The position numbers and the translations under genes are program-made. DNA of 64,000 bases from Sphingobacterium psychroaquaticum (GTDB lineage Bacteria > Bacteroidota > Bacteroidia > Sphingobacteriales > Sphingobacteriaceae): the NCBI RefSeq assembly GCF_900177625.1, contig NZ_FXAU01000005.1:186001-250000 (forward strand), given 5' to 3'. Shown here piece by piece: positions 29,927-38,450 of the stretch. The stretch's first letter is position 1. Every line of letters starts with the position of its first letter. The notes beneath the pieces were generated by a model. It was not told the DNA's origin. It searched no databases and saw only the letters and a list, made by a program, of their open reading frames with translations.

Positions 29927-29947
29927 TATTTAGATTTTGTCTAAATA
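29927..29947. promoter_or_regulatory. Perfect 8-5-8 palindrome, candidate metalloregulator operator
   Basis: TATTTAGA-TTTTG-TCTAAATA ends 4 bases upstream of the -7 box of the TonB-receptor operon, so a bound protein would block RNA polymerase. The A/T-rich arms around TAGA/TCTA resemble operators of Fur- or DtxR-type metal repressors; the regulator is inferred and not encoded in the window. No second copy was noticed in the window. Confidence 0.6.
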
Positions 29948-29951
29948 GAAT

Positions 29952-29959
29952 TATATTTG
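29952..29959 (+). promoter_or_regulatory. TAnnTTTG promoter element of the receptor-protease operon
   Basis: TATATTTG, 19 bases before the ATG at 29979. An in-frame TTG at 29973 is rejected in favour of that ATG, which starts a proper signal peptide. Confidence 0.65.
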
Positions 29960-29978
29960 TAGCCAATCTTCGTTGAAA

Positions 29979-32723
29979 ATGAATAGAATATTAGTGGTCA
30001 TTGCGATCGGTACAGGGTTGTACTTGCCTTTTTCGGCTGCGGCAAAAGGACGTTCTTTAGAATATATTACCGTACAACAACAAGAGCAGCAAAAAGTATC
30101 GGGTAAGGTTATACACCAGGGGAAGCCTGTTCGTGGTGCAACCGTTCGATTAAAAGAATTAGAACTCTTTGCGATGACGGATGCTGAAGGAACTTTTGTG
30201 TTTCCTAATGTGCCTGTAGGAAATTATACTTTACAGGTACAATATACGGGCATGAAACCGATCGAGGTGAAGGCAATAACGGGTGCTAAGCCGGTAGAAA
30301 TTGCGCTAATCGAAAATTCTATTGCCCTCGAAGATATCCAGGTTGTGGGGCAGGTATCCAACGTAAAAGGGGCTACTTCAACTTATATCTCACGACAGGC
30401 TATTGAACACCTTCAGGCGACCAACCTCGGGGAGCTTTTGCAACTGTTGCCTGGGCAAAAAATTGGGAATCCATCTTTTTCGGGTGTCAATAAACCGCTG
30501 ATCCGTCAGATGGGGGATGTCAATGGCGACAATGTTGCTGCAATGGGAACTGCGGTCATTATTAATGGTGCTCAACTGTCCAATAATGCCGATCTCCAGG
30601 CGGCAAATACCGCTCGAGGGGGTGTGCTCTCTAACTTTTCCAATTCAACGGGGATGGGAACAGATCTACGTCAACTCTCGGCGGATAATGTGGAGTCAGT
30701 AGAGGTGATCCGAGGAATTCCTTCGGTTGAATACGGTGACCTTACATCGGGAATATTGGATGTGAAGACTAAAGCTGCTGTGGAACCCTTGCAAGCAAAA
30801 TTCAGATTGAATCCGACCATGCGCCAGGCTTGGTTGGGTCAGGGCTTTAGTACCGGAAAGAACGGAGGTGCTTTGTTCGTGGATGTGGACTATACGCATG
30901 CGTCTGACAAGCAAATCCAAACTTCAGAATCTTATCAGCGAATAAACACATCCTTGCAATATACCCATACTGTAGGCCGGAATAAAAATCTATATACGAA
31001 TACGAATCTGAGCTTTGGGGGGTATTTTGATAACAGCCGAATTGATCAGGATTTAATTATACAACAAGAGCTAAAGCGGGCGGAGAATTATGATTTACGC
31101 TTTTCGACGAACGGTCGGTGGAATATTGATAAACGTTTTGCGCGAAACATAAACTATGTGCTTTCTGCACAATATGGAATACAGCATGGATTCCAGCAGG
31201 GGATGACGAACGGACAGATTTCTGCCGTTTCCAGTGCGCTGGAGAATGGAACCAATGAAGTTCCCTATTTGCCATCTAATTATTTGGCCAAACTGTGGAT
31301 CGATGGTAAGCCGCTTAATGTGCAGGCTAAAGTTTCGGATAATTTTTATTTCTCAACGGGCGCTGTGCGTCACGGGATTGTTGTCGGTGGACAGTATAGT
31401 TTGGATAAGAATTTCGGCGTTGGTAAGACTTTTGATCCGATGGCTCCTCCAGCAGCGCTGGGTAATATCGCGACAAGGCCACGTTCTTTTAATGATATTC
31501 CAGCGATGCAGCAGTTGTCTTTTTACTTGGAAGATAAGGTGTCTGCCAATTTATTCAACAGAGAATTGAGTATTGTGGCCGGACTTCGTTATGATAATAT
31601 TCAGCCTTTTGCCGATAATAGTAAATATGCTTTTTCACCACGGATCAATGCTTCGTATACCTTGATTGATGGTTTAAATATTCGTGGGGGCTACGGACAT
31701 AGTGCGAAAGCTCCAGGACTGATTTACTTGTATCCTGAAAATGCTTATGCCGATATTTTTAGCTTAAACTACTACAAAGAAAACCCGGCAGAGAGTCTCG
31801 CTTTGATGACTACACGTGTGTTTTCTACCGAAAATAGGGACCTCCAAATTGCAAAATCTAAGAAAGCGGAAGTCGGGTTGGACTACCGATTCTTGAAGAA
31901 CAAACGGGTCTATTTAACGTATTACAACGAGCATACGAAGAACGGTTATAGCATGTTCGATCAATACAATTTTGCAACCGTGCCTATGTATACGGTATTA
32001 TCACAAGAGGCGGGTAAGAAACCGGAACTGAGCCCTGTAGTCAAAGACTCTTTGTATGTAACGGATTACAAGCGCCCGGGCAATAATGTTAACATTACGA
32101 ACAGAGGTTTTGAGTTTGATGTAGATTTTGGTCGTGTGGAAGCTATTCGTACCTCATTTACGGTGAATGGCGCCTACATGTATACCAAACGTATGGATAA
32201 TACGCCTTTAGTGTATGCACGTCGTGTCGCAGGTGAAGCGTATAACAGACTTGGTGTCTTCGAAAATCGAGGTAAGGAGTATGAACAGTTTGTAAGTACA
32301 ATCCGTGCCATCCATCATATCCCTGAGTTACGTTTGATTGTGAGTTTGACGGCACAGACAGTATGGATGGATAAAAATAGATACTTGAATTACACGAGCC
32401 GTCCCTATGCAGTTATCCCAATGGTAGAGGGTGGTGCTGGTAATATTGTTGAATTGACACCCGCTGAGATTGCTGCCATTCCAGAAACATCAGGTATTTA
32501 TCTCAGCATTGCGGATAACTATTACAAAGAAGAGTCCTGGAAACCGCTGTGGCTATTTAATATGAAGTTGACGAAAGAGTTCGGCAAAAACTATGGTTTT
32601 TCATTTTATGTGAATAATATCACCAACAGTCGGCCATTGAGAAACAGTACACGTTATCCGGATCAATATGAGAAGAGAAATATTCCGATCTTTTTTGGTA
32701 GCGAGTTAACCTTTAAGTTTTAA
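29979..32723 (+). CDS. TonB-dependent receptor, first gene of candidate uptake operon
   Basis: 914-residue outer-membrane receptor. Signal peptide MNRILVVIAIGTGLYLPFSA. Carboxypeptidase-regulatory domain at about 40-115 (VSGKVIHQGKPVRGATVRL, then FPNVPVGNYTLQV). Plug domain at about 125-270 with LGELLQLLPGQKIGNPSF, VIINGAQLSNNADLQ and VESVEVIRGIPSVEYGDLT, the last being a hallmark of TonB receptor plugs. The barrel follows and ends FFGSELTFKF. Such receptors import siderophores, heme, cobalamin or oligomers with energy from TonB. The palindrome over its promoter suggests metal control. Followed at short spacing by a DUF4876-like lipoprotein, a DUF6850-like barrel and a gingipain-like protease. 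Confidence 0.88.
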   Translation: MNRILVVIAIGTGLYLPFSAAAKGRSLEYITVQQQEQQKVSGKVIHQGKPVRGATVRLKELELFAMTDAEGTFVFPNVPVGNYTLQVQYTGMKPIEVKAITGAKPVEIALIENSIALEDIQVVGQVSNVKGATSTYISRQAIEHLQATNLGELLQLLPGQKIGNPSFSGVNKPLIRQMGDVNGDNVAAMGTAVIINGAQLSNNADLQAANTARGGVLSNFSNSTGMGTDLRQLSADNVESVEVIRGIPSVEYGDLTSGILDVKTKAAVEPLQAKFRLNPTMRQAWLGQGFSTGKNGGALFVDVDYTHASDKQIQTSESYQRINTSLQYTHTVGRNKNLYTNTNLSFGGYFDNSRIDQDLIIQQELKRAENYDLRFSTNGRWNIDKRFARNINYVLSAQYGIQHGFQQGMTNGQISAVSSALENGTNEVPYLPSNYLAKLWIDGKPLNVQAKVSDNFYFSTGAVRHGIVVGGQYSLDKNFGVGKTFDPMAPPAALGNIATRPRSFNDIPAMQQLSFYLEDKVSANLFNRELSIVAGLRYDNIQPFADNSKYAFSPRINASYTLIDGLNIRGGYGHSAKAPGLIYLYPENAYADIFSLNYYKENPAESLALMTTRVFSTENRDLQIAKSKKAEVGLDYRFLKNKRVYLTYYNEHTKNGYSMFDQYNFATVPMYTVLSQEAGKKPELSPVVKDSLYVTDYKRPGNNVNITNRGFEFDVDFGRVEAIRTSFTVNGAYMYTKRMDNTPLVYARRVAGEAYNRLGVFENRGKEYEQFVSTIRAIHHIPELRLIVSLTAQTVWMDKNRYLNYTSRPYAVIPMVEGGAGNIVELTPAEIAAIPETSGIYLSIADNYYKEESWKPLWLFNMKLTKEFGKNYGFSFYVNNITNSRPLRNSTRYPDQYEKRNIPIFFGSELTFKF

Positions 32724-32768
32724 TCAGACGATACACTGCCGAATGGCAAGTAGAAAAATAAGAAATAG

Positions 32769-33953
32769 ATGAAAAAGATATGTTTTATACTTCTGGGACT
32801 GTCGCAGCTGATGCTGGCCAGTTGTAGAAAGGAATTTGAAGTGGTGGATAGCGTGCCGGTTGTTTTTCAATTGGTTTTTCCGGAGAGTTTTAAGGAAGGC
32901 GCTGTGCCGGAAAAGGTAAATATTCAACTTAAGAATAATGTGACCGGCGAAGTGCGCCAGTTGGTTTCTGATGTGGAGGGTAAGTTGGCGTTGAATCTGA
33001 TTCCGGGAACCTATTCTCTTGCCGCGTCTCGTAGCTATACGGCGGCGGAATCAGAAGAACTGATTGGACACGCACAAGAATCTTTTGTGAATGCGAGCAT
33101 AGCCCCACTATTGGTGGAAACAAGTACGCGGGCGGTCAGTGTACCCTTGAAAGTGAGCCAAGCCGGTAGTTTGGTTATACGGGAGTACTATTATAGTGGT
33201 GTACCGAGTGTTTATTTCTATGATTTGTTTTTGGAGATATACAACAACTCGAACGAAACGGTTTACCTTGATAGTATGTATATGGGGAATACGAAGGCAG
33301 GAAGCACGTCTGCTCATGGTTTTCTGTCCAAGACAGACTCGGTTTATTTGGCACAAGTATGGATGATTCCGGGTTCAGGCAAAGACCACGCTTTAGCACC
33401 AGGAGAGTCGTTTATTATATCGATGAATGCGATCAATCACAGGGACGATCCAAAAGGGAATCCGAACTCACCGGTTAATTTAGGGAAAGGTATTTCCAAT
33501 TTTGAGACCTATTGGCCGTACACGAATCGAGATACCGATAACCCGGATGTACCAAATCTGTTTCACGCATACGCAAGTACTACAGCTGGGTTTGATTGGT
33601 TGCCAGGTTCTAATGGTGGAGGAATTGTGATTTTCGAGGGTAAGGATTTTGCAAAATGGCCAGTTGCCCGGGAGCCGAACGCTACAGGTAACACACAATA
33701 TAAGTCTGTTCCTGTGGGAGTCATTATTGATGGGGTCGACTGTGTGCCAAATGCTAACGTTGCTGCCGATAAGAAGCGTCTACCTATTTCGGTAGATGCC
33801 GGGATGACGACTACGGGAGCGATCTATAGTGGAAAATCAGTACGCCGGAAAGTAAAGCAGGTGATTGGCGGACAGACGATCTTCCAAGATACCAATAACT
33901 CGTCTCTGGATTTTGAAATTAACAATACCCCTTCACCACGTAAATGGAATTAA
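32769..33953 (+). CDS. DUF4876-like surface lipoprotein
   Basis: 394-residue lipoprotein: signal MKKICFILLGLSQLML and lipobox LASC (Cys19), followed by RKEFE. Residues about 30-130 look like a carboxypeptidase-regulatory or CNA-B-like beta-sandwich (PEKVNIQLKNNVTGEVRQL, LNLIPGTYSLAAS). The C-terminal part begins LVIREYYYSGV and continues DLFLEIYNNSNETVYLDS, in the style of lamin-tail/DUF4876 domains. It starts 45 bases after the receptor gene. A receptor plus lipoprotein layout is like SusC/SusD-type pairs, so it may be a surface ligand-binding partner; that is inference. The DUF assignment is from memory of the family. Confidence 0.65.
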   Translation: MKKICFILLGLSQLMLASCRKEFEVVDSVPVVFQLVFPESFKEGAVPEKVNIQLKNNVTGEVRQLVSDVEGKLALNLIPGTYSLAASRSYTAAESEELIGHAQESFVNASIAPLLVETSTRAVSVPLKVSQAGSLVIREYYYSGVPSVYFYDLFLEIYNNSNETVYLDSMYMGNTKAGSTSAHGFLSKTDSVYLAQVWMIPGSGKDHALAPGESFIISMNAINHRDDPKGNPNSPVNLGKGISNFETYWPYTNRDTDNPDVPNLFHAYASTTAGFDWLPGSNGGGIVIFEGKDFAKWPVAREPNATGNTQYKSVPVGVIIDGVDCVPNANVAADKKRLPISVDAGMTTTGAIYSGKSVRRKVKQVIGGQTIFQDTNNSSLDFEINNTPSPRKWN

Positions 33954-33958
33954 CAGCA

Positions 33959-35518
33959 ATGAACAGAAGAATAGTATTAGGCTTGCTCTTAACTGGGGTA
34001 ACAGGGGCCGCTATGGCGCAAGAGGGAAAGCAGGTGTTGGATAAGATGGTGCTCCAAGAAGTAAGTATAGATAGCCGTAATTCGGCTTTACTACAGACGG
34101 TGCGCACTTCGAATATTGGTGAATCAACGGTGAGTTATATGGTCGAGGATGGTGATTTCAAGCATCCTTTATTGGCGGCACAAAGTCATTACTTCGACTT
34201 CAGCTCTAAACGGTACCAGGAATTTAAAGGCTGGAAGTTGTATGGTCGATTTGACCTGCGTACAGGTATAGAAAAGGATGTGCCACATACCAGTCAGTTG
34301 GATCCTTTACGATTGAATCCGTATATCTTGATGGATTCTCTGCAGGGTGATTGGAATAAACAACGTTATGGACTAGAGGTAAAAGTCGCATCTCCGTTTT
34401 TTAAAGATCGTGTTGCCGTGGGGTTGGGCTTGAAATATGCGGTAAATACAGGTGCAAGACAACGTGACCCACGTCCAGAAAATACACAAAATGATCTGGA
34501 ATTGATCCCTTCTGTTGCCTACAAGATTAACGATCGAAATATCCTTGGGCTTTTTGGTAGTTATAATTATTTGGGTGAAGATGTGAAAATCACCAATGTA
34601 AATTATAATGTTGCTCACAACTTATATAAGCTGTTAGGGCTCGGAGAGTATGAAGGAAGTTCACCGATCTTTTTGTCGAGTGCAGACATTATTCGTCGTT
34701 ACGCGGGGAATCGTTTTGGTGGAGGATTAAATTACAGTTACGCAAACGGAGGGTTTCGTAGTCATCTAGAAGGCTTTTTTCAGCAGCATACCGAAAAAGC
34801 AACGGACGGATCGACTTATCCTAAAAATGCAGGGGAACATCGGTATAAGAGATATGGCTTCCAAGCGGATTTAAGCCAAACGACAACATCCGGAATTCAT
34901 CAACTGCGTGCAGAATGGATTCAGACCGATATAGAAAATGAAGAGTTTCATCAATATCAGGATCCGATTACACGAAACTATGTGACCTTGTTCTCGGCAG
35001 TACTGAATACCAATTTGGTAACCCAGGCAGCATTACGGTATCAGTTTGGCCGGTTAAAAGGGGATAAGCTGTCGTGGAAAGCGGGAGCAAAAGCACAATA
35101 TCATGGATGGGACAACCGGTATGCCAGCAACCGAAGTCAGCAAACTGTAGACCGGATGCAGTATGAGGTCGATTTTGATAAATATTTCACCTCAGCGGAT
35201 CAGTCCGGCCTTGTGTTGCATGCTGGCGTGGGCTATTCAGATGCTTTTAAAACGATTTTCAACTATGAAGAGAAAGCCTATTCGACAAATTTTATAGCGA
35301 AGGAAATTCTTTATCCTACGAATGCCTTTATGTCAACTGATTTTTGGCAGATCAATGCTGCGGTCCAATATGTGTTTAAGCCGACGGCTAAATCGGGAAC
35401 CCAGTTTTATATTAAAGCTAGCGGTGGATATTTAAAACCGACCGAAGGGAATGCGTATTTTGCAAAAAGTATGTCACGAATGAACGGACAGCTCGCAATT
35501 GGCATTTTTTCCTTTTAA
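33959..35518 (+). CDS. Outer-membrane beta-barrel protein, DUF6850-like
   Basis: 519-residue exported protein. The start at ATG 33959 gives the signal peptide MNRRIVLGLLLTGVTGAAMA and lies 5 bases after the preceding stop; an ATG at 33944 would overlap the upstream gene and add five residues. The rest is a series of amphipathic beta strands with aromatic girdles (GLKYAVNTGARQRDPRP, FGGGLNYSYANGGFRSHLEG) and ends MNGQLAIGIFSF, like an outer-membrane barrel C-terminus. It fits the DUF6850 family, which accompanies DUF4876 proteins and TonB receptors. Substrate unknown. Confidence 0.62.
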   Translation: MNRRIVLGLLLTGVTGAAMAQEGKQVLDKMVLQEVSIDSRNSALLQTVRTSNIGESTVSYMVEDGDFKHPLLAAQSHYFDFSSKRYQEFKGWKLYGRFDLRTGIEKDVPHTSQLDPLRLNPYILMDSLQGDWNKQRYGLEVKVASPFFKDRVAVGLGLKYAVNTGARQRDPRPENTQNDLELIPSVAYKINDRNILGLFGSYNYLGEDVKITNVNYNVAHNLYKLLGLGEYEGSSPIFLSSADIIRRYAGNRFGGGLNYSYANGGFRSHLEGFFQQHTEKATDGSTYPKNAGEHRYKRYGFQADLSQTTTSGIHQLRAEWIQTDIENEEFHQYQDPITRNYVTLFSAVLNTNLVTQAALRYQFGRLKGDKLSWKAGAKAQYHGWDNRYASNRSQQTVDRMQYEVDFDKYFTSADQSGLVLHAGVGYSDAFKTIFNYEEKAYSTNFIAKEILYPTNAFMSTDFWQINAAVQYVFKPTAKSGTQFYIKASGGYLKPTEGNAYFAKSMSRMNGQLAIGIFSF

Positions 35519-35563
35519 CTTTGTCGCAGCTGAAAAGCTACGCTACTTAGATAACATGTACTC

Positions 35564-37792
35564 ATGAGAAACAAAAAAATGTGGTCACTGGCCTTCGCAA
35601 TTTTCGCTTTTGGCAAAGTGACCGTACAAGCGCAGGAGATTCAGAAGCCTGGTATTAAATCGGCGACGAGTTTTGCTATTGTAATTGATAAAGGAACGTA
35701 TCAATATGCAAAGGCGGAGGTGGATGCCTATAAAAAGGCGGTTGAAAAAGAAGGGTTAGGGACGTATATTTTGGTGGAGCAATGGCGTTCCCCGGATCAG
35801 GTTAAGGCGGAGTTGTCTAAGTTGTATACACAAAAAGAGGCAAAACTCGAAGGTGCTGTGTTTATTGGAGAAATTCCAATCCCTATGATTCGTGATGCGC
35901 AGTTTTTAACTTCGGCATTCAAGATGAACCAAAAGATTCGTTGGGACAAGTCGTCTGTGCCATCTGACCGTTTTTATGATGACTTTGACCTTAATTTTGA
36001 TTTCATCCGTCAGGATACGGCAAAAGGAAGGGAACAATATTTTTACTACAGCTTGAATGCTGCTTCGCAACAGTTTATCGAGATGGATATCTATTCCGCT
36101 CGTATCAAACCACCTGTTTTGGCGGGAGAGGACCCGAAAGTAAAAATCAAAGATTACCTGCATAAGGTGGTACGTCTTCGTGGTGAGGATAATCCGTTAA
36201 CGGATATGATTGCCTCCACGGGACATGGCTATAACTCGAATGCTATTAATGCTGTTTCTGGGGAAGCACTGGCTTTGAAATCTCAGTTTCCAGACTTATT
36301 TAAGCCGGGAAACTCCATGAAGTTTTTAAACTACAGGAATTCAGAGTTTATGAAGTTCAATTTGTTGACGGAGTTGAAACGCCCAGGAATTGACTTTGCC
36401 TATATGACGGGACATGGGACGCCTACATTACAGTTGTTGAATGGTTATCCAGATGTATCGTCGCCCCAACCGTCAATGCAAAACGTTGCACGTTATTTAC
36501 GCTCTAAAATGCGGTCGGCTAAGGAAGATGGACGGGACTTAGAGAAGGTTAAGTCTGATTTTCAAGCGTCATTAGGCGTCAATGATAAATGGTTTGAAGC
36601 GGCATTTTCGGAAGCTTCTATTGCCAGCGATTCGATCTATAATGATAATATGGATATGCAGATCCATGATATAAAAGATGGTGGAATCCAGGCGCGTTTG
36701 GTGTATCTAAATTCCTGTTTGACGGGCTCTTTTCAACTGGAGAATTATATCGCCGGTTATTATCCTTTCTCCACAAATGAGAATATTGTTGCCGTGGCTA
36801 ATTCGGTCGGGGTGTTGCAAGATTTGTGGCCAGCGGAATTGATGGGGATTTTGCAGCATGGCGCACGCGTTGGGCATTGGGTAAAGCAGATTGCTTATTT
36901 GGAGACACATATCTTAGGTGATCCGACCTTCGCATTCAGTTCAACACGTAAGGCGGCATTGAATGAAGCGCTTGCTACTAAAACGAATGATGCAGGTTAT
37001 TGGAAGACCTTATTAAAGACGAATGATGCCGATTTACAAGCGTTATCTTTGGTGTACTTAAGTCGTTTGTTACCGAAGGACGAGGCTTCGAATCTGCTAA
37101 AAACCTATTACTTTGACTCTTCTTATGAGACCGTGCGGATGGAAGCTTTTCAGCTTTTACGTAATTTTGAGGACAAGAATTATTTTGAAGTTTTGCATGC
37201 AGCAAAAGGAGATTCATACGAGTATATCCGTCGTCGGGTCGCGTACGATTTAGCTGATTTTGGAGGAGACGATTTTGTGAAAGATCAAATTTCTTTCTAT
37301 GTTTCTGATCCGCATTCAGAACGCGTAAGCTATCGTACTCGTTGGAATTTACAGTTCTTGAATCCGGCGTTGGCACACGATGCGGTAAATGAATTGATTC
37401 GTAATAATAAAGCCTTGGTACACGGTGATACGGTGGCCAATAAATTGGATCAGGATATAGATTACCACGCGAAGAAGACGGCAGCGGCTTTAGCTATTAT
37501 CACGGATGTAACTAAATTGGACAAGGACCGTTTGAGTGAAATCAATTCCTTGCGTTTATATAGAAATCATGCAATGATTCCTGCCTTGACCGCAATCGCT
37601 ATTAATGAAGCCGATTCGGAAGAGGTACGTAAAACAGCATTGGAGGTCATGGGGTGGTTTAGCATTTCTGTACGAAGACCAGAGATTATCGCTGCTTGCG
37701 ATACGATCTTGAGTCGTGCAAACGATATAGAAGCTGTTAAGAAAGAAGCGCTGAAGACAAAGAAGCGTGTTTCTTCTAAAAAGCATTCCTAA
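35564..37792 (+). CDS. Secreted gingipain-like (clan CD, C25-type) putative cysteine peptidase with C-terminal HEAT repeats
   Basis: 742-residue protein with a Sec signal peptide ending VTVQA. Residues about 35-460 look like a caspase/gingipain fold: VFIGEIPIPMI near 99 (first beta-sheet motif of C25 peptidases), VPSDRFYDDFD at 132-142, the catalytic-type His in YMTGHGTP (His284), the catalytic-type Cys in YLNSCLTG (Cys385) and ILGDPTFAF at 450-458, the usual end of the C25 catalytic domain. Residues about 470-735 are helical repeats of HEAT type (SLVYLSRLL, RMEAFQLLRNF, IRRRVAYDLADFG). No type IX sorting domain is seen at the C-terminus, so periplasmic location is as likely as secretion. Last gene of the receptor operon. 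Peptidase activity is inferred from motifs only. Confidence 0.7.
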   Translation: MRNKKMWSLAFAIFAFGKVTVQAQEIQKPGIKSATSFAIVIDKGTYQYAKAEVDAYKKAVEKEGLGTYILVEQWRSPDQVKAELSKLYTQKEAKLEGAVFIGEIPIPMIRDAQFLTSAFKMNQKIRWDKSSVPSDRFYDDFDLNFDFIRQDTAKGREQYFYYSLNAASQQFIEMDIYSARIKPPVLAGEDPKVKIKDYLHKVVRLRGEDNPLTDMIASTGHGYNSNAINAVSGEALALKSQFPDLFKPGNSMKFLNYRNSEFMKFNLLTELKRPGIDFAYMTGHGTPTLQLLNGYPDVSSPQPSMQNVARYLRSKMRSAKEDGRDLEKVKSDFQASLGVNDKWFEAAFSEASIASDSIYNDNMDMQIHDIKDGGIQARLVYLNSCLTGSFQLENYIAGYYPFSTNENIVAVANSVGVLQDLWPAELMGILQHGARVGHWVKQIAYLETHILGDPTFAFSSTRKAALNEALATKTNDAGYWKTLLKTNDADLQALSLVYLSRLLPKDEASNLLKTYYFDSSYETVRMEAFQLLRNFEDKNYFEVLHAAKGDSYEYIRRRVAYDLADFGGDDFVKDQISFYVSDPHSERVSYRTRWNLQFLNPALAHDAVNELIRNNKALVHGDTVANKLDQDIDYHAKKTAAALAIITDVTKLDKDRLSEINSLRLYRNHAMIPALTAIAINEADSEEVRKTALEVMGWFSISVRRPEIIAACDTILSRANDIEAVKKEALKTKKRVSSKKHS

Positions 37793-37794
37793 TA

Positions 37795-37826
37795 AAAAAG
37801 CCGAATCGTTAAGATTCGGCTTTTTT
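37795..37826. terminator. Bidirectional terminator after the protease gene
   Basis: AAAAAGCCGAATC / GATTCGGCTTTTT with a short loop; separates convergent genes and ends the receptor-protease operon. Confidence 0.85.
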
Positions 37827-37829
37827 ATT

Positions 37830-38450
37830 TTAATGACCGCCGTGATTATGCTCCAATGGAGGGGTAATCATGATGTGTGCTTTATATCCTCCTTCATCCA
37901 TTAACCAAGGCATACCGATGTTGTTATGCTTGCTGGATAAGCCAATATCTTCCGCTTTAGCGAAAGGCATGTAGATTACATAACGACGTTTCGCATCTTT
38001 TATCTCACCGGTCTCTGTATTGACATTCGATGCTTCTCCCCAATAACCATATAGAATTGTTGGTGTTTGTGGGATTTTTAACTTACCAGCTTTAAACTCT
38101 TGTTCCCGGATTTCATCCCGTTGTTTGCGTTTACCCTCTGCTATCAGTTGACGCCCTCTTTCCATAAACTCATCCATAGATTGTGGGTAGGCATAGGAAT
38201 AATAGGTTGCCATTTTATAGTCGGGAGCAAGGCAAACCATTTTGCTGTTGTTCGTCGGTTCTTGCAAGACAACAAACTTGCCATTTTCGTCGTAGCCGTA
38301 TACTTTGGCCCCAGGGCGTAAATCTTCAGGAGCAGCCTGTAAGGCTAGTTTGATCTGTACATCTTTTGGTAGAGGCTTACGCTCTACTTTTTGTGCGGAA
38401 ACAGTGGAAAACGAAATTACTGTTAGCGCTATTGCGATAATTTTTTTCAT
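37830..38450 (-). CDS. Secreted protein of unknown function with His-rich C-terminus
   Basis: 206-residue protein with signal peptide MKKIIAIALTVISFSTVSA. I do not recognise the family. It has a charged helical segment in the middle (MERGRQLIAEGKRKQRDEI) and ends EHNHGGH, a possible metal-binding tail. A TATTTTTG box lies on the minus strand at 38467-38474, 16 bases before the ATG. It is convergent with the protease gene and shares its terminator. Next gene upstream is xseB, about 100 bases away, so it is a separate unit. Confidence 0.6.
   Translation of the reverse strand: MKKIIAIALTVISFSTVSAQKVERKPLPKDVQIKLALQAAPEDLRPGAKVYGYDENGKFVVLQEPTNNSKMVCLAPDYKMATYYSYAYPQSMDEFMERGRQLIAEGKRKQRDEIREQEFKAGKLKIPQTPTILYGYWGEASNVNTETGEIKDAKRRYVIYMPFAKAEDIGLSSKHNNIGMPWLMDEGGYKAHIMITPPLEHNHGGH

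Follow-up and report, generated by a model that had tools for sequence, protein, structure and literature searches.

A predicted gingipain-fold protease encoded with a TonB-dependent receptor: a candidate Fus-like iron-import operon in Sphingobacterium psychroaquaticum

In the Fus systems (FusA–FusC, and YddB–PqqL in Escherichia coli) an iron-regulated TonB-dependent receptor is co-encoded with an exported protease, and the enzyme of the related clusters may be the M16 protease FusC, a protease of another kind or cytochrome c peroxidase; for the peroxidase, reductive release of the iron cofactor has been proposed (Grinter et al.; PMC6793856). Here we describe an operon with a similar arrangement in the genome of Sphingobacterium psychroaquaticum, within a stretch of 64,000 nucleotides (contig NZ_FXAU01000005.1, positions 186,001 to 250,000) that we call the window. 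It encodes a TonB-dependent receptor, a DUF4876 lipoprotein, a DUF6850 family protein and a 742-residue exported protein predicted to be a protease; iron control is suggested by its operator, and sister loci exchange the protease for other enzymes. Unlike Fus, however, its protease is predicted to be a cysteine peptidase of clan CD and bears HEAT repeats, M16 proteases being found in this slot at sister loci alone; it adds the DUF4876 and DUF6850 proteins; and it occurs in Bacteroidota and their relatives, whereas the published Fus survey describes Proteobacteria. Because the protease is not of the M16 family and our searches with the receptor detected no relationship to FusA, the operon is not classed as a member of Fus and is best called a new variant among protease-associated import systems, a class defined by function. 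With confidence a little above even, we read it as a Fus-like outer-membrane import system that scavenges iron using a clan CD protease.

Two further sets of described proteins and loci are close to this operon. The gingipains RgpB and Kgp (MEROPS C25) share the catalytic fold of the 742-residue protein, with a His and a Cys that are conserved and lie at the ends of strands, but have an immunoglobulin-like domain and a sorting tail where the window protein has HEAT repeats. The window protein does not reach the Pfam C25 cut-off and is borne on an operon with a receptor. The homologous or partly homologous loci BT_1933-1939 of Bacteroides thetaiotaomicron (a HEAT-repeat protein, DUF4876 and receptor) and PG1019-1022 of Porphyromonas gingivalis (a receptor/DUF4876 pair annotated without a protease) were induced 3.5–7.4-fold and 20–214-fold, respectively, in iron depletion, the former by RNA-seq (PMC10434189). 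That work called both merely an outer membrane transport system and did not identify the HEAT protein as a peptidase of gingipain fold. In the literature that we searched, from which subscription journals were mostly absent and which later work may have overtaken, DUF4876 is without a function and DUF6850 is not mentioned.

Scanning 84,980 species genomes gave 523 relatives, and the counts below that are given out of 80 loci refer to the best 80 of these. The features of the locus are as follows (positions are those of the window).

29928..29946, no strand: palindrome ATTTAGATTTTGTCTAAAT, a perfect 7-5-7 repeat and putative Fur-type operator (sequence; kept at orthologous operons)
29952..29959, + strand: putative Bacteroidota -7 promoter element TATATTTG (sequence)
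29979..32723, + strand: TonB-dependent receptor with CarbopepD_reg_2, plug and barrel regions (Pfam; PDB profile)
32769..33953, + strand: DUF4876 lipoprotein, orthologue of BT_1938 (PDB 4q1z) (Pfam, 6.8e-38; lipobox)
33944..35518, + strand: protein of the DUF6850 family, probably a second outer-membrane barrel (Pfam, 3.6e-109)
35564..37792, + strand: predicted cysteine peptidase of gingipain fold (clan CD), with His284, Cys385 and HEAT repeats at the C-terminus (model, fold match, alignment)
37799..37821, no strand: bidirectional intrinsic-terminator-like hairpin (sequence)
37830..38450, - strand: 206-residue exported protein, convergent here, outside any Pfam family (found at 26 of 80 loci)

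The original prediction described a four-gene, one-direction operon closed by a terminator, and the four open reading frames, their order and their shared strand are indeed as it stated. The receptor and DUF4876 genes are separated by 45 bases, as are the DUF6850 and protease genes. The ATG of DUF6850 lies 10 bases inside the DUF4876 gene; an alternative start (MNRR...) would give the gap of 5 that had been predicted. The receptor most likely begins at the ATG at 29979, two codons inside the TTG at 29973 that opens the reading frame. A T6 run directly follows the terminator-like hairpin at 37799-37821, and the -7 element is one that we take to be such from the Bacteroidota consensus.

The 742-residue protein

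Sequence searches with the 742-residue protein returned little: Pfam gave a sub-threshold HEAT match alone and no C25, and a search of NCBIfam gave no match. C25 (PF01364) stayed sub-threshold by sequence, one homologue reaching E 3e-4 and 20.5 bits against a cut-off of 23. An AlphaFold2 model of the protein had a mean predicted local distance difference test score of 95.5, and when it was compared with known structures the gingipains RgpB and Kgp took the first four rows (Z 29.1–29.8 over about 295 residues at 2.6–3.0 Å; the best single rows were RgpB at Z 29.8, 294 residues and 2.6 Å, and Kgp at Z 29.3). These were followed by separase (Z 16.3), a SAVED-CHAT filament protein and legumains. 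The C-terminal third of the model matches HEAT and alphaRep proteins, and HEAT repeats are also supported by profile. The C25-type peptidase with HEAT repeats originally proposed is therefore borne out, as modelled, in its fold and in its repeats.

The landmarks on which that proposal rested, His284 (TGHG), Cys385 (NSC), VPSDRFYDD and LGDPTF, are present and conserved. In an alignment of 96 diverse homologues, 30–71% identical to the window protein, His284, Gly285 and Cys385 are invariant and Asp135, Arg136, Tyr138 and a G452-D453-P454 motif are also kept; in many homologues the Cys motif is DACYNG-like. The catalytic His and Cys of clan CD peptidases each stand directly after a core strand. 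In the model His284 and Cys385 do the same (strands 278-282 and 379-383), which is consistent with the caspase-like placement that had been named as a check. The His-Cys dyad is retained in every full-length protease copy across the 80 loci. A HEAT-only protein without peptidase function was ruled out by the gingipain fold together with the invariant dyad. We conclude that the 742-residue protein is, as modelled, a gingipain catalytic domain joined to HEAT repeats and a predicted clan CD cysteine peptidase, belonging to a widespread peptidase family that Pfam annotates merely as HEAT repeats.

The protein has a Sec signal peptide and no lipobox, Pfam finds no type IX secretion system sorting tail (Por_Secre_tail, CHU_C) in it, and it ends in HEAT-type helices. 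Because of the signal peptide, the lack of a detected sorting tail and this helical end, we place it provisionally in the periplasm, where it is probably located.

The palindrome and iron-type control

The palindrome upstream of the receptor had been predicted to confer metal or nutrient control. A perfect 7-5-7 inverted repeat is by itself not rare, since the window holds 11, that is, ten besides the one at 29928-29946; what makes this one meaningful is its conservation and the regulon of iron genes that shares it. Across the whole genome, the pattern ATTTAGAN5TCTAAAT with at most one mismatch occurs at 15 sites, against 3 for a reversed control pattern. At two mismatches the motif is near background (57 against 42 sites), and such weak sites were therefore left unused. 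Many of the genomic copies lie directly 5' of iron or haem genes, identified by reading their sequences: HmuY-like lipoproteins, HmuT-like binding proteins, AraC regulators, FecI-like sigma factors, hemA and a TonB-dependent receptor/cytochrome c peroxidase pair. One copy (C13:51346) is within an open reading frame. The operons of relatives are preceded by the same box with 0–2 mismatches, whether their first gene encodes the receptor, the 206-residue protein or the protease; some Pedobacter and Chitinophaga loci are without it and have an extracytoplasmic function (ECF) sigma/anti-sigma pair in their flanks. A chance palindrome was ruled out, as among the repeats only this one is both enriched at iron genes genome-wide and conserved.

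ATTTAGATTTTGTCTAAAT has the same motif and the same 19-base architecture as the Fur box ATTTAGAATTATCCTAAAT of Riemerella anatipestifer, which belongs to a different order of Bacteroidota and in which Fur bound the box in a gel shift (PMC10986502); a second form of the box is given in PMC5976166. The window operon thus has a Fur-type box near its promoter, and two Fur-family genes are present in this genome. Box enrichment, conservation and the match to Riemerella all point to iron as the controlling nutrient, and we infer from the operator that the operon is under Fur-type iron control, with Fur binding the site in this species.

Elsewhere in the genome, a perfect box (C11:339964) lies immediately 5' of a gene for a 105-residue cysteine-containing protein. 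Three boxes are also clustered at C11:268267-268484, flanked on one side by a regulator-like gene and on the other by a SusC/SusD-like pair, an arrangement that suggests an iron-controlled SusCD system.

Conservation of the operon and exchange of its enzyme

The best 80 relatives span Bacteroidota, Ignavibacteria, Neomarinimicrobiota and KSB1 (many are metagenome-assembled genomes, and phylum names are as recorded). Receptor, DUF4876, DUF6850 and protease genes occur together at 74 of the 80 loci, so the gene neighbourhood proposed as a check is a conserved one; contig ends truncate five of the remaining six loci, and the sixth, in Faecalibacter macacae, has decayed. At this last locus (L057) the receptor and DUF6850 genes are reduced to fragments while two protease genes are intact. 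In a random, even phylum sample of 392 genomes, DUF6850 was above cut-off in 39 and a full-length protease was present in nine, all nine having DUF6850 within about 10 kb. Within the genus the protease was found in 7 of 36 relatives. An operon carries one to three tandem, divergent copies of it. Many loci of gut Bacteroidota (for example L064, L066, L071, L080, L090 and L104) have three divergent tandem proteases, all with the His-Cys dyad.

Pfam supports the identities of the other three proteins. In a profile search of the PDB the receptor was closest to the enterobactin and Cir receptors, with haem receptors ranking lower; such a resemblance between profiles does not identify the ligand. 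As the profile prefers these barrels, a haem receptor is disfavoured, and haem, one of the ligands first suggested, is not favoured either. A SusC/SusD nutrient uptake system was also considered and rejected, since Pfam finds no SusD and the partner is DUF4876. An N-terminal signalling (STN) domain had been guessed for the receptors of about 1010 residues beside ECF sigma genes; Pfam found none. The lipobox Cys19 of DUF4876 is invariant in 62 sequences, and the protein, presumably located at the surface, has weak Pfam matches to LTD and CarboxypepD_reg. The best Foldseek match of its model was its own orthologue, the crystallised DUF4876 protein BT_1938 of B. thetaiotaomicron (4q1z), which therefore gave no outside lead to function. 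Nearly all DUF6850 orthologues have a signal peptide and a C-terminal aromatic residue, from which the protein is probably a second outer-membrane barrel.

Where the receptor-DUF4876-DUF6850 triad occurs without the gingipain-fold protease, the genes 3' of DUF6850 often encode another candidate iron-releasing enzyme. Nine such loci encode a protein bearing a pair of CxxCH haem motifs, which Pfam assigned to CCP_MauG in the cases tested, and one locus encodes an M16 protease. In six loci of Ignavibacteria type, a YCF48-like protein is accompanied by M16 and, mostly, M28 peptidases; here M16 and M28 were assigned by Pfam at L165 and L168 and by motif or N-terminal similarity at the others. Further triads are followed by PepSY_TM and ATP-binding cassette (ABC) genes or by a 300-residue lipoprotein. 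The S. psychroaquaticum genome itself has a paralogous triad (L136, G000:C5:221000-237000); its Fur box has one mismatch, and the di-haem peroxidase there is divergent.

Mechanism of import and its alternatives

Our preferred explanation for these findings is that Fur would repress the operon in iron-replete cells. Under iron shortage, the receptor would capture and import an iron-bearing protein or large iron-peptide, assisted by the DUF4876 surface lipoprotein and the DUF6850 second barrel, and the signal-peptide-bearing protease would cut the import in the periplasm to free iron or a cofactor, its HEAT repeats serving as a scaffold for substrate or partner. The proteolytic activity, the nature of the ligand and digestion after import are the presumed parts of this scheme. 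It would be analogous to FusA–FusC, in which M16 does the same job, with a receptor and a protease of different lineages. If true, iron piracy by protein import extends beyond the FusA lineage, with a different protease, to Bacteroidota (among them gut Bacteroides, in which the protease is present in as many as three tandem copies), Ignavibacteria and KSB1; DUF4876, DUF6850 and the peptidase family would gain testable functions, and the published iron-depletion signals of B. thetaiotaomicron would be explained. More tentatively, and at somewhat less than an even chance, the triad may be a general outer-membrane platform through which Bacteroidota and neighbouring phyla take in whole iron-bearing proteins. 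It would then be an independently assembled, second counterpart of the proteobacterial Fus systems, with a swappable iron-freeing cassette. The cassette (gingipain-fold protease, M16, M28 with M16, di-haem peroxidase or PepSY/ABC) would then supply the chemistry suited to each ligand.

Some observations weigh against Fus-like import. Neither a FusA nor a YddB chain was among the matches listed in sequence and profile searches with the receptor, and the induction seen in B. thetaiotaomicron was modest. Some Sphingobacterium have two paralogues of about 635 residues that lack both catalytic residues and, on their sequences, are conserved pseudo-proteases. In some triads the slot holds a non-protease enzyme or is empty, and proteolysis is therefore not required for the receptor module.

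The original prediction invoked a gingipain-like logic, here taken to mean that the protease would cut haem or iron proteins of the host or environment outside the cell and the receptor would import what was freed. The gingipain core of that proposal stood and is in its favour, as are the box shared with HmuY-like and HmuT-like genes and the presence in P. gingivalis of the PG1019-22 pair plus separate gingipains. Digestion outside the cell did not fare as well: the protease has a Sec signal peptide without lipobox or sorting tail (another route to the surface is possible), and the receptor resembles those for catecholate siderophores, not haem. We consider surface digestion unlikely. FusC-type digestion after import is the closer functional parallel because the protease lacks the tail and looks periplasmic, and the main reason for preferring a Fus-like mechanism to a purely gingipain-like one is the independent parallel in the alternation of enzymes.

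The protease might instead trim the lipoprotein, the receptor, the 206-residue protein or a small iron-peptide or peptide-type siderophore, with no digestion of iron proteins. The siderophore-type receptor profile, the one to three divergent tandem copies and the membership in clan CD of highly specific processing enzymes, such as separase, itself a fold match, are compatible with this. However, the replacement of the protease by M16 or by M28 with M16 suggests general degradation, since an unrelated protease family is unlikely to have the same specific cut site, and we judge trimming rather improbable. Uptake of another metal or cofactor merely co-regulated with iron, copper for example, seems very unlikely to us given the Fur-type box and the published induction of homologues by iron depletion, although di-haem enzymes from sister loci give scores with the models for MauG and MbnH that stay under the curated cut-offs. 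The MbnH family is linked to methanobactin-copper loci. That the receptor is required for export of the protease also seems very unlikely: the tight operon, and the TonB-dependent transporter reported as required for secretion of the protease PopC in work cited in PMC6793856, would fit, but elsewhere the triad is accompanied by peroxidase, M16 or PepSY/ABC genes and has no such protease, and iron-type control points to uptake.

In Sphingobacteriales and Chitinophagales the 206-residue protein belongs to the module as its fifth member and has a conserved PWLM..G..KAHIMI.P motif; its gene may be convergent, first or internal (for example at L019, L041 and L046). The pair of genes for 635-residue paralogues is in tandem and adjoins the 206-residue gene (L019:13070-16893; also L029, L030, L031, L038 and L051). 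A family of lipoproteins of about 300 residues, without a Pfam match, recurs beside operons with or without the protease (L142, L152, L158, L160, L042, L084 and L086).

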